Under the pieces are notes generated by a model. It did not search any database. It had not been told where the DNA came from and saw only the letters and a program-made list of their open reading frames with translations. From Planoprotostelium fungivorum (taxonomy: Eukaryota > Evosea > Variosea > Cavosteliida > Cavosteliaceae): 64,000 nt of DNA. The position numbers were made by a program, and so were the translations under genes. Of this stretch, positions 3,704-59,900 are shown piece by piece (positions within the stretch are counted from its first letter, which is position 1; every line of letters begins with the position of its first letter). The stretch spans positions 62,001 through 126,000 of the forward strand of contig MDYQ01000017.1 in the NCBI GenBank assembly GCA_003024175.1, read 5' to 3'.

Positions 3704-6700
3704 ATGAACTCTCTCTTGTCTCTGCGTGAGTTCACCTGTCAGCTCCATCATGGGGCAATCATATTCCGAACCAGCTGACCCCAACAGGCCCCATCGTGCA
3801 GCAATGCAAGAAGGTGGCCATCAACACAGGACGTATCAATGTGGTATCGGTGAGTTCACAATGCATTCGAAGCCTACTAACATCATCGACAGCGCAGTTC
3901 GACGATCGCCCGCTCTACATTCTGCCGGGCATCTTCGACGACCTCTTTAGCACCCCTGGACACCTTTGTTCGCAGACACGTTGGTCCCAGAGATCACGAA
4001 ACAAAGGAGATGTTATCACTCCTTGGCTTCTCTTCTCTCGATGACCTGACCAAGAAGAACGTACCCAAGGCCATTCAAAGACAACCCATGCAGATGGAAC
4101 AAGAGAAATCAGAGGTGACATGATTTCCTTATCATCATCACACGAAGAAAAATAAGAGCCATCACTTCAACCCCCTCTCCATCGTAACAAATGGAACAGG
4201 AACAAGTGTTGAACGAGCTGTATGGTGTTTTATCCAAGAACAAGATCTTCAAATCATACATCGGCATGGGTTACTACGGTACAGTCCTCCCGAAAGTCAT
4301 CCTCCGAAACCTCTTGGAGAACCCCGGCTGGTACACGTCCTACACCCCCTACCAGGTCTGTCCATCTACAACGAGCCATTTCATTCTGACGTGACCCTAG
4401 GCCGAGATCTCTCAGGGCAGATTAGAATCCCTCCTCAACTTCCAGACACTCGTCACTGATCTGACCAAGATGGACATCGCGAACGCATCTCTGCTCGATG
4501 AAGGTACGCATCATCCCCATTATGCATCACGTGGTGCATCATGTGGCTGATCACATCAGGTACCGCGGCCGCCGAGGCCATGAACATGGCTTACGGTAAC
4601 GCAAAGAAGAAGAAGCCCGTGTTCTATGTGTCATCAGCCGTCCATCCACAGACCATCGCTGTCTTAAAGACAAGAGCCGGCTTCGTCGGTGGCATCCAAG
4701 TCGTCACCTTCGACGAGAATCACGTGAAATTTCGATACGTTATTTTGCTCCTGACGCGTTGTAGAATGACGTAACGAAGAATTTGGATCGTCTGTCGGAA
4801 GCCTGCGGTGTCATGGTGCAATACCCTGATACGTATGGAAGAGTAACAGACTATTCCGCCATGTCTGCTGCCGCTAAATCAGCCGGTGCTATCTTTATCA
4901 CCGCATCTGACCTGCTGGCACTCACCTTACTCAAGGTGAGAAAATCGATCGAAATTTTGCGGAAAAATGACGGAAAAATAGCCACCCGGAGAATTCGGCG
5001 CCGACATCGTTCTCGGTAGTGCCCAGCGTCTGGGTGTTCCCATGGGATACGGTGGTCCCCACGCTGCCTTCTTCGCCGTGAAGGATAATTTGAAGAGAAT
5101 TATGCCTGGCAGACTCATCGGTGAGCGTTGTAGATCGACCATTTCTCACCATCCTCTCAGGTGTGTCGGTCGATTCGAACGGAAAGAGAGCCTACCGTAT
5201 GTCACTGCAGACGAGAGAGCAGCACATTCGCAGAGAAACGGCCACCTCGAACATCTGCACGGCTCAGGCCTTGCTGGCGAATATAACCGCCATGTACTGC
5301 GTGTACCACGGACCGAAGGGAATCAAGGTGAAGCCGTCTACAACGTTGTAGATGGACTGAATCGGGTAGGAAATCGCAGAGAGGGTCAACCTGTGCAGCA
5401 GAACCGTTGGTTCCGGCCTGCAAGAGATGGGCTACAAAGTAGAGTGAGAAATTCCGCAGAAATTTCGCGTAGAACTAACGCGTACAGTCACGCCGATTAC
5501 TTTGATACCCTCTTGGTTCACGTTCCCGCTGGAAAGATGAACCAGTTGAAGGAAGAGATGAAGAAGAGAGAGATCAACCTTCGATATGTGTCTGAAGACA
5601 AGGTCACCGTTTCTCTTGATGAATCTGTGTCAGAGAAGGACATCCAAGAGCTGCTGAATGGCTTCGCAGCTGCCGTGGGAAAAAAGGCGGGAACGGCCTC
5701 CGACCTGGCAGGTGAGCCTCTCCCCCCGATTTCGATTCAAATTTCAAACAGCCCGCGCTCCCGCCGTCGATTTCGGCACCCTCTCGCGTACTTCGCCCTA
5801 CTTGACTCACCCAGTCTTCAACGTCCACCATTCAGAGACGGAGATGTTGAGATATCTTAAGAAGCTGGAAAACAAGGACCTGTCCCTCGCCAACTGCATG
5901 ATTCCTCTCGGATCCTGCACCATGAAGCTGAACGCCACGACCGAGATGATTCCCGTCACGTGGCCTCAGGTGAAAGACATTTTCCCGCGCTTTTTCTGAA
6001 TTCAAATTTCGAAGGTGGGGAACTTGCACCCGTTCGCGCCACTCGACCAGGCCGAAGGTTACTTGTCCATGTTCGACTCCCTGTCTCAATCTCTCAAAGA
6101 GATCACCGGTTTCTCCAAGGTAAAACCACCGTAATTCCATCTACAACCAGCCCACTCCCACCAGGTCTCCCTCCAGCCCAACTCCGGGGCCCAGGGAGAA
6201 TTTGCCGGACTCTCCGTCATTCGTGCTTACCTGAACGACAACGGTGGTTCCCATAGAAACATCTGTCTCATTCCAGTGTCCGCCCACGGTACGAACCCAG
6301 CTTCTGCCGCCATGGTTGGAATGAAAATCGTACCGGTCAAGGTGTGACGAAATGTCATCGAGATTTCGTGGAAATATCTGAGACATTTCCAGTCTGACAA
6401 CGATGGAAATGTCGACGTGAATGATTTGAAGGAGAAGGCCGAGAAGCATGCAAAGGACCTGGCTTGTCTCATGATCACTTACCCTTCGACACACGGCGTG
6501 TTCGAGGAGCCCATCAAAGACATCGTAAAGATCGTACACGACAACGGAGGTCTCGTCTACATGGACGGAGCCAACATGAACTCCCAGGTGAGTTGTAGAT
6601 GGAAGATTCTGAGAAATTTACGGGGCAGGTGGGTCTTTGTTCACCCGGCGGCATCGGAGCCGACGTGTGTCACCTCAACTTGCACAAGACTTTCTGCATT

Positions 6701-56901: not shown

Positions 56902-59900
56902 ATGTTGAGACTCCTCAGTCACTCGAGATGTCCGTCTCTAAAATCAAGGATCTTCTCCATCTGTCCTCGACAATCCATCACTCCACAACGCCTCTCGGTG
57001 ATTGAATGCATCGTCAGACTCCACATTCACCTCCTGACACGTCGAAATACAGAGTACGATACTTCCCACGTATGAGCCCGCATCCATCGAGAAGAAATGG
57101 CAACAGAGATGGGCGACAGAGCCTCGGTCTCTGTCCGAAGACAAGCCTGCGTATTACGCCCTCACCATGTTTCCTTACCCTTCTGGCTATCTTCACATGG
57201 GTCACGTTCGTGTCTACACCCTCAGCGATGCGATATCTCGCGTCAAGCGACTGCAGGGACACAATGTCTTTCAGCCAATGGGTTGGGATTCGTTTGGACT
57301 ACCTGCAGAGAACGCAGCGTTAGACAGAGGAGTACAACCACAAGGGTGGACGAAGGAGAATATCCAACACATGAAGTCACAGCTCATCCGCCTGGGAACA
57401 CATTTTGACTGGGAGAACGTCAGTCTACAACGTTGTAGATGGATTTTCGGCTGAAGGACGACAGGAACTGAGTACGTGTGATCCCGAGTATTACAAGTGG
57501 ACCCAGTGGCTATTTTTAGAACTGTACAAGAAAGGAATGGCCTACCAGAAAGAAGCTCAAGTCAATTGGGACCCCATCGATCAGACCGTCCTAGCTAACG
57601 AACAGGTGACCCTCTTAATATCTCGTGCGACGTCTAATCGAACAGGTGGACGGTGAAGGTAGATCGTGGAGATCAGGTGCCGTCGTGGAGAAGAAGATGA
57701 TGAGACAGTGGTTCTTCCGTATCACGCAGTACGCAGACGTGAGACGATAGAAGGGAGGACCTCACGATTGAGTTGTGTCAGGTTCTATCCGAAGGCCTCG
57801 ATCAGCTGAAAGGTTGGCCCGACACGGTGAAGGTGACAGTGGATGACTGTTCTGACCCATCTGACCCACACGACAGCTCCTGCAGAAGAATTGGATCGGT
57901 AAATCACAAGGTCTCACCCTCCGCTTCGATTTAGAACAGGTGACACCTCTGAGACATTCATCATCTCACCCCATCAGACTCCACAGCACGACGGTATCCC
58001 TACCAATATCTCTGTCTTCACAACGAGAGCTGACACACTCTTCGGCGTGTCCTTTGTAGCCATCGCTGCCGATCACCCTCAGTTGAAAGACATCGTCCCG
58101 CGACACCTTCACGCCGATGTGCTACCACTCTGCAAAGACATGTCGAGCAAAGATGTGGAAGAGAGGAGGGGACAGGGTGTCTTCACTGGAACCTACGCCG
58201 TTCATCCATACGTGAGTTCGAAGTGGAAATTGGAATCTGAAGGCTCGTTGTAGACGGGGAAGAAGGTACCGGTTTGGGCGGCAGATTATGTCTTGTCTCA
58301 GTATGGAACGGGTGAGGGACAGTGGGGGAGGTGTTTGATGACGTCACGCAGGGGCGGTAATGGGTGTTCCCGCGCACGACGAGAGAGACTATCAATTTGC
58401 AAAGAAGTACGATCTACCTGTCATACCTGTCATAAAGAACCCGAATCTTGAGGGAGAAGGCGGTGAGATCTACGCGAGATTTCGGGTTACGTACCGAACG
58501 TGTACAGCGTACGAGGGGCAGGGAGAAGTGTTCGGTAGTGAATGGATCGATGGAATGGACAGCGTGGAGGCTCGCGAGCGCGTCATAAAGAGAGCACAAG
58601 ATGACGGATTAGGTCAAGCTACCACCAGCTTCAAGCTGCGTGACTGGTTAGTTTCCCGCCAGAGGTGAGGTCACCTCGCGTCTATATATAGACCGACTCG
58701 TTGTAGATACTGGGGTGCACCTATTCCCATGATCCACTGTACAGACTGCGGTGTAGTCCCCGTGCCAGAAGAAGATTTACCCGTGTTATTACCCGACGAA
58801 GTCGATTTCAAAGGCAGCCGATCGTCACCACTGGCCAACATGGAAGAGTGGTACAACTGCAAGTGTCCAAAGTGAGATTCGATAGAGGTGACTGTCTATA
58901 ACACGTGCAGATGTAACAAGACAGCGAAGAGAGAATTAGACACCATGGACACATTCGTCGACTCTTCTTGGTATTTTCTCCGATTTCCCGATGCAAAGAA
59001 CGACAGAGAGTGAAGATATCATTATGACACACCGTGTTGACTAGTACAGAGCCTTCTCGAAGAAGAGAAACGAAAGTTTCCTACCGGTCGATGTCTATAT
59101 CGGCGGTATAGAGCACGCCATCTTGCACCTCCTCTACTCTAGATTCATCCATCGCTTCCTACACGATCAGAAGCACACCGTGGCAGAAGAGCCTTTCGTC
59201 AATCTCATCACACAGGGTCAGCTCTATGTCATTGAGATTCCTCTGAATCAAGACAGGTATGGTGCACGGTAGAACGTACAAAGATCACAATGGAAAATTC
59301 TTGAAGCCGGAAGAAGTGACAGATCCTCACGGTAAGTCGTCACATTCGACACACTGACTGAACTTCACAGGACAAGAACCGAAAGACATGAAGACAGGCC
59401 TGCCCGTCGTCTTATCCTCTGAAAAGATGTCTAAGTCGAAATACAACGGTGTAGATCCTCAGCCGATCATTGACAAGTACGGAGCAGGTGATCCACCCTC
59501 CCTCTACCGCACTGACATCGATCAGATACCGTGAGGACCTTCATGCTCTTCAAAGCTCCAGTCGAAAACGTTTTAGAATGGGACATCCACGGCATCATCG
59601 GTGCCCATCGGTGGCTGTCACGCATCTGGTCTCTCGTCCACACGCAGACCTGCATCCCCTCCCCCCACTCCACCGTTCTCGAAGCCATAGAGAAGGCCAG
59701 CGAGGAAGAGAGAGATCTCATGAGTCAAGTCCAGACGCACGTCCGCGCCATGAACGAATGTGTTTCCGTCGAGCGGCACGGATTCAACGTGGCCGTTGCA
59801 AATTTGATGAAATTGTCGAACTTGATATCGGACGCTCCAGAGAAGGTCAAGGGAGGCCTCGTCTACACTCTGTCCCTGCGATGTCTTCTCGTCTTGCTGA

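Follow-up and report, generated by a model that had tools for sequence, protein, structure and literature searches.

The stretch of 64,000 nucleotides analysed here (contig MDYQ01000017.1, positions 62,001 to 126,000; hereafter, the window) comes from a genome deposited as Planoprotostelium fungivorum and carries ten exact copies of a 14-nucleotide (nt) palindrome, CTACAACGTTGTAG, all of them in predicted short introns. Analysis of the copies in the window and across the assembly revealed that the palindrome is a rigid DNA dyad and the strongest word of a small intron vocabulary. Together with its flanks, it equals the first 13 bases of the consensus of a one-sided form joined to their own mirror image. 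The best explanation as a whole, offered tentatively and at a little under even probability, is that the palindrome represents the inverted-dimer form of a short dispersed element, the one-sided form of which reads about TCCATCTACAACGAGCCA.

The DNA carrying the label Planoprotostelium fungivorum is probably that of Protostelium aurantium: the portion of PMC10639083 available to us states that the genome so labelled at NCBI really belongs to the latter species, and reports 265 minor introns from it.

Copies of the palindrome in the window and in the genome

All ten perfect copies were found where the earlier note, made from the window sequence alone, had placed them. With up to two mismatches allowed, the window contains 15 matches, against 0.14 expected from shuffles. 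On the forward strand, perfect copies occupy 5338-5351 in a GLDC intron of 42 nt (5328..5369), 13833-13846 and 14585-14598 in two CCT8 introns of 41 and 43 nt (13826..13866 and 14577..14619), 21546-21559 in a GH3-family intron of 43 nt (21533..21575), 31212-31225 and 31359-31372 in two MMSDH introns of 42 and 51 nt (31207..31248 and 31345..31395), 38231-38244 in a STAT intron of 47 nt (38221..38267) and 57425-57438 in a LeuRS intron of 46 nt (57419..57464). On the reverse strand, they are located at 28774-28787 in an intron of a rhodanese-like gene (40 nt, 28760..28799) and at 43795-43808 in an intron of an EXO1-like (XPG) gene (40 nt, 43782..43821). The claim that the perfect copies reside in short GT-AG introns was thus borne out for ten of ten, with lengths of 40-51 nt, and no perfect copy lies in an exon of the window. 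Nine host genes had been counted; eight have perfect copies, CCT8 and MMSDH having two each, and the ninth, encoding a sedolisin-type protease, has imperfect copies only.

One-mismatch copies, differing in the centre, are present in a second STAT intron (41 nt, 37647..37687, forward strand; copy at 37660-37673) and in an intron of the sedolisin-type gene (51 nt, 60858..60908, reverse strand; copy at 60884-60897). The former had been located correctly by the earlier note and the latter, given there as 60893, had not. Another intron of the sedolisin-type gene (49 nt, 61566..61614, reverse strand) has a two-mismatch copy at 61593-61606. Two-mismatch matches were also detected at 22971, within an intron with tandem half-elements, and at 59441, in the LeuRS gene outside the introns listed here.

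Intron status was backed independently for six introns, five of them with perfect copies (two introns each in CCT8, MMSDH and STAT). The CCT8 and MMSDH models align with solved proteins gap-free across the junctions of the four introns in which they carry the palindrome, and a public STAT protein crosses both STAT introns as in the gene model; the window STAT protein shares 99% identity with PROFUN_04291 of Planoprotostelium fungivorum. The identities proposed for the host genes held up: Pfam searches with N-terminal parts identified GDC-P, GH3, rhodanese, XPG-type nuclease, LeuRS and pro-kumamolisin, CCT8 and MMSDH were recognised via solved structures, and STAT via homologues.

Genome-wide counts were made on the assembly of 36,859,091 bases (36.9 Mb) in 471 contigs. 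CTACAACGTTGTAG occurs exactly at 750 places, and the reversed control pattern at none. Locations were assigned with an ab initio hidden Markov model gene finder, self-trained on C1:1-200000, the window and five motif-bearing loci, with no information on the motif supplied; it was trained and applied on the same 279 kb (279,070 bases). It settled on GTGAGT-like donors and CAG acceptors and predicted 809 introns with a median length of 43 nt; together they cover 39,915 of the 279,070 bases (14%). Loci L010-L015 were picked for holding the motif and therefore raise the counts of location, rate, spacing, covariation, splice sites and information that include them; region and clustering counts omit these loci and one gene across C1:140000. 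Location claims rest on the gene models, since a simple splice-site score is a weak classifier: in 35 short stretches, 30 of 35 copies scored above 5, but so did 70 of 150 controls from exons and as many of 150 from intergenic DNA; 26 of 35 copies scored above 7, against 36 of 150 and 39 of 150, respectively.

In this sample, 23 of 25 exact copies fall in predicted introns, and in three of these 23 the TAG of the motif itself is the predicted intron end. The two others are at C1:146512, called intergenic, and at C1:155225, called coding, which looks like a missed intron. The earlier note had staked its observation on introns being richer in the motif than intergenic DNA. In the element-rich part of the sample, motif-selected loci included, the 8-mer core CAACGTTG reached a density of 0.93 per kb in introns, against 0.03 per kb in intergenic sequence, which favours that observation.

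Geometry of the dyad

The two arms of the palindrome keep one distance. Across the genome, CTACA and TGTAG are separated by 4 bases at 2,042 places, by 3 bases at 13 and by 5 bases at 14; in the sample, 38 copies have the spacing of 4 and at most two have any other spacing from 0 to 25. Mismatches are confined mostly to the centre: among 38 intronic sites with up to three mismatches, five fall in the ten arm bases and 19 of 24 in the four central bases (p 4e-7). Base preferences reach 5-6 bases past the core and are roughly symmetric, and mirrored positions are independent of one another (n = 65 copies, 35 from gene models and 30 oriented by the weak splice-site score). Fixed spacing and symmetric half-site preferences are those of a dimeric DNA-binding site, and the conserved arms with a freer centre favour recognition by a dimeric protein. 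One of the explanations offered in the earlier note, a bound DNA site, is therefore supported as a property of the sequence; a tie of this site to splicing is a possibility.

The same note had considered an RNA hairpin bringing the splice sites of tiny introns together, and this proposal was not supported. A 5-bp hairpin does appear in the predicted fold of 30 of 34 palindrome introns, and these fold more stably per base than 571 other introns (-0.21 vs -0.14 kcal/mol/nt). Any palindrome would fold so. A hairpin would accept other loop lengths, and loops of 3 and 5 nt are nearly unused. Core pairs are nearly invariant and thus uninformative for covariation, and the flanks show no compensatory changes. 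At positions -2/+15, Watson-Crick pairs number 27 against 32.2 expected, G-U pairs 17 against 15.0 and A-C mismatches 14 against 11.1; mirrored flank positions 1-5 and 8 have Watson-Crick pairs at or below expectation, and positions 6 and 7 slightly above it (21 vs 19.7 and 20 vs 16.1). Genome-wide, the flank counts depart away from pairing: CAT...ATG occurs 67 times, CGT...ACG 15 times and the mixed combinations 66 + 56 = 122 times, against 80, 28 and 95 expected (p 7e-5), a result to be read with the caveat that long perfect palindromes may be unstable or hard to assemble. On rigid spacing and lack of covariation, the hairpin was rejected as the selected feature.

Sites hold about 24 bits in the core, a figure inflated by the cut-off of three mismatches, and 8.6 bits in the flanks. 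By the information theory of binding sites, 13-16 bits suffice for that many sites, and the excess favours the copying of a short unit.

The one-sided form at splice sites

The one-sided form, CTACAACGAGYCA, was found at 959 + 926 = 1,885 places on the two strands, against 2 + 0 for its reversed control. Without the mirror half, CTACAACG is likewise enriched in introns and lies there in both orientations (24 forward and 47 reverse); the consensus is about TCCATCTACAACGAGYCA.

The reverse orientation coincides with splicing signals. In 708 introns without the element, 253 contain TGAC, and the A of TGAC stands at 10-12 nt from the intron end in 137 of these, which is the mode; the reversed half-element TGACTCGTTGTAG places this A at 11 nt. 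Of 27 introns ending in GTTGTAG, three are dyads and 16 have the A of TGAC at 10-11 nt. Of 11 exact 13-mers that form the 3' splice site, 10 contain TGAC, compared with 7 of the 21 located elsewhere (p 0.003). TGAC is one base away from the form commoner elsewhere, so that a single change makes a branch point; the direction of this change we infer. Moreover, the sequence AT follows the intron in 21 of the 27 introns ending in GTTGTAG and in 14 of 90 other TAG-ending introns (p 3e-9). The element, as in TGTAGATGG, thus continues into the exon and extends beyond the part that splicing takes out.

Window examples illustrate these arrangements. A CCT8 intron (14346..14407, forward strand) ends in CTGACTCGTTGTAG, the half-element being both branch point and 3' splice site. 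The reverse half-element TGACTCGTTGTAG forms the 3' end of the intron at 61373..61414 (reverse strand), after which the exon starts with AT, and another reverse half-element lies in the intron of the sedolisin-type gene at 61485..61523 (reverse strand), which is also present in a 91% paralogous fragment. Other copies overlap the donor as GTGACTC or GTGGCTC; in a gene which we take from its predicted protein to be phosphoglucomutase-like, a reverse half-element covers the 5' splice site of the intron at 40391..40427 (forward strand; GTGGCTCGTTGTAG). The intron of the same gene at 40746..40807 (forward strand) has two tandem forward half-elements 23 nt apart, and a GH3-family intron (22913..23001, forward strand) has three tandem copies of CTACAACGAG; the tandem half-elements in both introns have a period of about 23 nt. 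A GLDC intron (4356..4400, forward strand) contains the forward half-element TCCATCTACAACGAGCCA.

In predicted coding sequence the exact 13-mer has five copies, all forward, four of which share one frame and read TTSQ or TTSH; the copy in the EXO1-like coding sequence (44255..44267, reverse strand) is in frame as TTSQ.

Pairing of the branch point with an odd U2 small nuclear RNA (snRNA) was considered and rejected: the one U2 copy read has GTGTAGTA in the relevant region, which we take to be ordinary. U2 snRNA gave 14 matches above the Rfam cut-off in the genome (C27, C123, C90, C94, C387, C120, C234, C451 and C23).

Intron turnover, gene distribution and competing readings

We favour, with slightly more doubt than confidence, the reading that a copied, protein-recognised short element seeds or remodels introns, in the manner of introners, at far shorter length and without target-site duplications. 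The short unit would have spread by a copying or insertion process, and a dimeric protein, either of the host or similar to a transposase, would recognise its dyad at the DNA level. Copies landing in genes would persist mostly inside, or as part of, a tiny intron. The reverse element reads TGGCTCGTTGTAG|AT, in which one change would give TGAC, with the branch point 11 nt away from the 3' splice site TAG, and an element lying over a donor could supply GTGACTC or GTGGCTC. The element would thus act like an introner, seeding or remodelling introns at a scale of about 20 bp. A viral source was rejected, as the 18-mer ATCTACAACGTTGTAGAT had no exact match in viral contigs, among which records of or very near this genome may have been left out.

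Paralogues indicate that intron turnover has been large and, from the GH3 pair, that it is fast. The window GH3 gene (20517-23507) has 14 predicted introns and its 57% paralogue (C434:103287-105545, L072) four, with one shared position; 13 of the 14, including all four with the element and the one at 21533..21575, are without counterpart in the paralogue. A sedolisin paralogue on C104, at 46% identity, can be aligned over residues 41-606 with no stop in between, whereas the window gene has ten predicted introns.

The earlier note had also suggested that introns multiplied by copying. Copying is favoured for a unit that measures about 14-24 bp, lies in either orientation and is shared across introns of unrelated genes; whole introns are not shared. 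All-against-all BLAST of introns did not reveal similarity near both intron boundaries: paralogous introns aside, the best of the 60 pairs listed match over 20-32 nt, a part of the intron. The element was therefore not classed as an introner, end-to-end similarity having been tested for and not found. Some introner families have target-site duplications or terminal inverted repeats; here, one offset 3-nt duplication signal (10 vs 1.6) arose among thousands of tests, and the dyad is itself an inverted repeat.

Element-bearing introns are unevenly distributed. The window and C1 beyond 140 kb have 25 introns with the dyad and 46 with the half-element among 415. Pairs of element-bearing introns in the same gene number 124, against 67.9 in shuffles, a value reached in one of 5,000. 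No 5' bias along genes was found, the mean relative position being 0.515 (68 introns), and an enhancer with such bias was rejected on this ground. Plant intron-mediated enhancement motifs are short intron DNA words, promoter-proximal and degenerate; unlike them, the element is without 5' bias and its copies are near-perfect.

Other short dyads accompany it. Introns of the element-rich part (24.7 kb, motif-selected loci included) and of the poor part (15.2 kb) contain TGACGTCA 30 and 3 times, GAAATTTC 27 times and not at all, and TCACGTGA 13 times and not at all, respectively. Across genes, the presence of these words is correlated with that of the element (rho 0.39, p 3e-4), and in introns TGACGTCA and TCACGTGA reach 1.2 and 0.53 per kb, against 0.13 and 0.06 in intergenic DNA. 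The words TTCCCGCC/GGCGGGAA, too, show enrichment in introns of the element-rich part, and those of C1:1-140000 have few or none of them. Furthermore, about 20 nt, TTTTGGCGGGAACTGACTCC, are common to the introns at window 22350-22394 and C1:159971-160020, a possible repeated intron word, and the 190-nt intron at window 25037-25226 contains tandem units like TTTCATTCTACAACGACGG.

A wider version of the copying reading takes in this vocabulary: copying would spread protein-recognised dyad units of about 18-24 bp, giving a gene set with introns largely built from such words (the dyad, the half, TGACGTCA and GAAATTTC), and the unit would become a splice module after one base change. We regard this version as possible, at distinctly lower probability.

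Several results weigh against the favoured reading. TGAC is missing from nine of the 27 introns ending in GTTGTAG. Sharing ends after about 24 bp, so that these are not whole-intron copies, and among 73 copies no target-site duplication was found flush with the element. The paralogue comparison is without outgroup, so that gain and loss are not separable in it. A 91% identical sedolisin-type fragment on the same contig, about 86 kb upstream (C109:36605-37005, L073), keeps two element-bearing introns, represented in the window by 61485..61523 and 61566..61614, the core of one differing at two of 14 positions; these introns are therefore older than the duplication and not strictly constrained. 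In the element-rich part, with dyads counted twice and motif-selected loci included, CTACAACG has 0.25 per kb in intergenic DNA against 4.7 in introns, a scarcity that plain insertion does not predict. C1:1-140000, with 307 introns, has no dyad and six half-elements. From its predicted proteins we take this region to hold recognisable conserved genes, and its lack of dyads is explained neither by the favoured reading nor by the binding-site rival given below. Taken by themselves, dyads show no significant clustering within genes (11 pairs vs 8.2 expected; 1,040 of 5,000 shuffles), and adjacency of element-bearing introns is not raised (13 vs 10.5; 1,171 of 5,000). Finally, the fraction of element-bearing introns per gene correlates with G+C at third codon positions (GC3; rho 0.30, p 0.005) and with two codon-usage axes (rho 0.23, p 0.04; and, for the second principal component, PC2, rho -0.35, p 0.001), which a selected function would explain too.

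The main rival, unlikely on balance, is a gene-body binding site: a host dimeric protein would bind the dyad, introns being the gene stretches free of coding constraint, and no mobility would be needed. It accommodates the rigid spacing, the symmetric and mutually independent half-site preferences and the weak correlation with codon usage. The co-occurrence by gene of TGACGTCA and TCACGTGA and their excess over intergenic rates also count in its favour, both dyads resembling known factor sites. Against it stand an information content about twice that needed, the crossing of 3' splice sites into exons, the absence of 5' bias and the 140 kb with 307 introns and no dyad.

More improbable is an RNA element of the pre-mRNA, whether a hairpin uniting the splice sites or a binding site for a splicing protein. 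It agrees with the intronic position of most exact copies, between the 5' splice site and the 3' end, and with the predicted folds; the unused loop lengths, the flanks without covariation and the occurrence of one-sided copies in both orientations speak against it. Marginally less probable again is a convergent splicing signal, in which this species would favour GTTGTAG and CTACAAC as RNA motifs close to its splice sites. The reverse half indeed fits the local geometry of branch point and 3' splice site. Such a signal leaves unexplained the inverted dimer, the forward half, the coding and intergenic copies and the exon-initial AT, and the ordinary U2 copy also counts against it. Chance, mis-assembly or a mixed culture or hybrid genome, to which the uneven distribution between regions of one contig could point, deserves practically no weight: the 14-mer and the 13-mer, when reversed, match at 0-2 places, which refutes chance, no difference between rich and poor regions was seen on the main axis of codon usage (p 0.19), and CCT8 was found once.

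Known systems resemble the copied short element of the favoured reading in part. In the portions of Gozashti et al. 2022 (PMC9860276) available to us, introners are similar sequences in introns of unrelated genes, considered in both orientations; they are enriched in genes in 161 of 175 genomes, some families give one splice site only, and median family lengths start from 30 nt. That work, in the same portions, required similarity near both intron ends with a BLAST E-value of 1e-5, whereas here about 14-24 bp are shared and the rest is unique; moreover, no target-site duplication was found here, and terminal inverted repeats would need fusing into one dyad. Sequence-similar stwintrons of Hypoxylaceae, as far as described in the portions of PMC8469720 and PMC12403724 at hand, are also repeated intron sequences in different genes, some internally symmetric; they are nested double introns, in contrast to the single introns of about 43 nt sharing a core word only in the present genome. 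The element was not described among the titles and abstract openings listed on introners, on Protostelium or Planoprotostelium genomes or introns, or on palindromic intron motifs.

Dyad-symmetric sites of dimeric DNA-binding proteins are, in general, alike in symmetric half-sites of fixed spacing with independent preferences, features known here from sequence. They differ in that the element is concentrated in introns and not in intergenic DNA, exceeds the information needed and overlaps splice sites.

How introns originate has been asked for a long time, and known introners have been identified as copies of nearly the entire intron. In the present genome, a short DNA dyad is what the introns share, with little beyond it for most copies, and the stages that lead from the bare element to a branch point with its 3' splice site can all be read there. 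If copying of 18-24 bp units is true, it would offer a stepwise, observable route to new introns, and the unit would be, to our knowledge, the smallest dispersed element competent for splicing. Perfect palindromy inside introns does not by itself imply an RNA structure, and the tests of spacing and covariation that separate the two readings are usable elsewhere.

It should also be mentioned that a tRNA gene of 87 nt is located at window 19803-19889, to which ARAGORN with bacterial settings assigned no anticodon; the Rfam scan of the window returned one tRNA at the gathering threshold.

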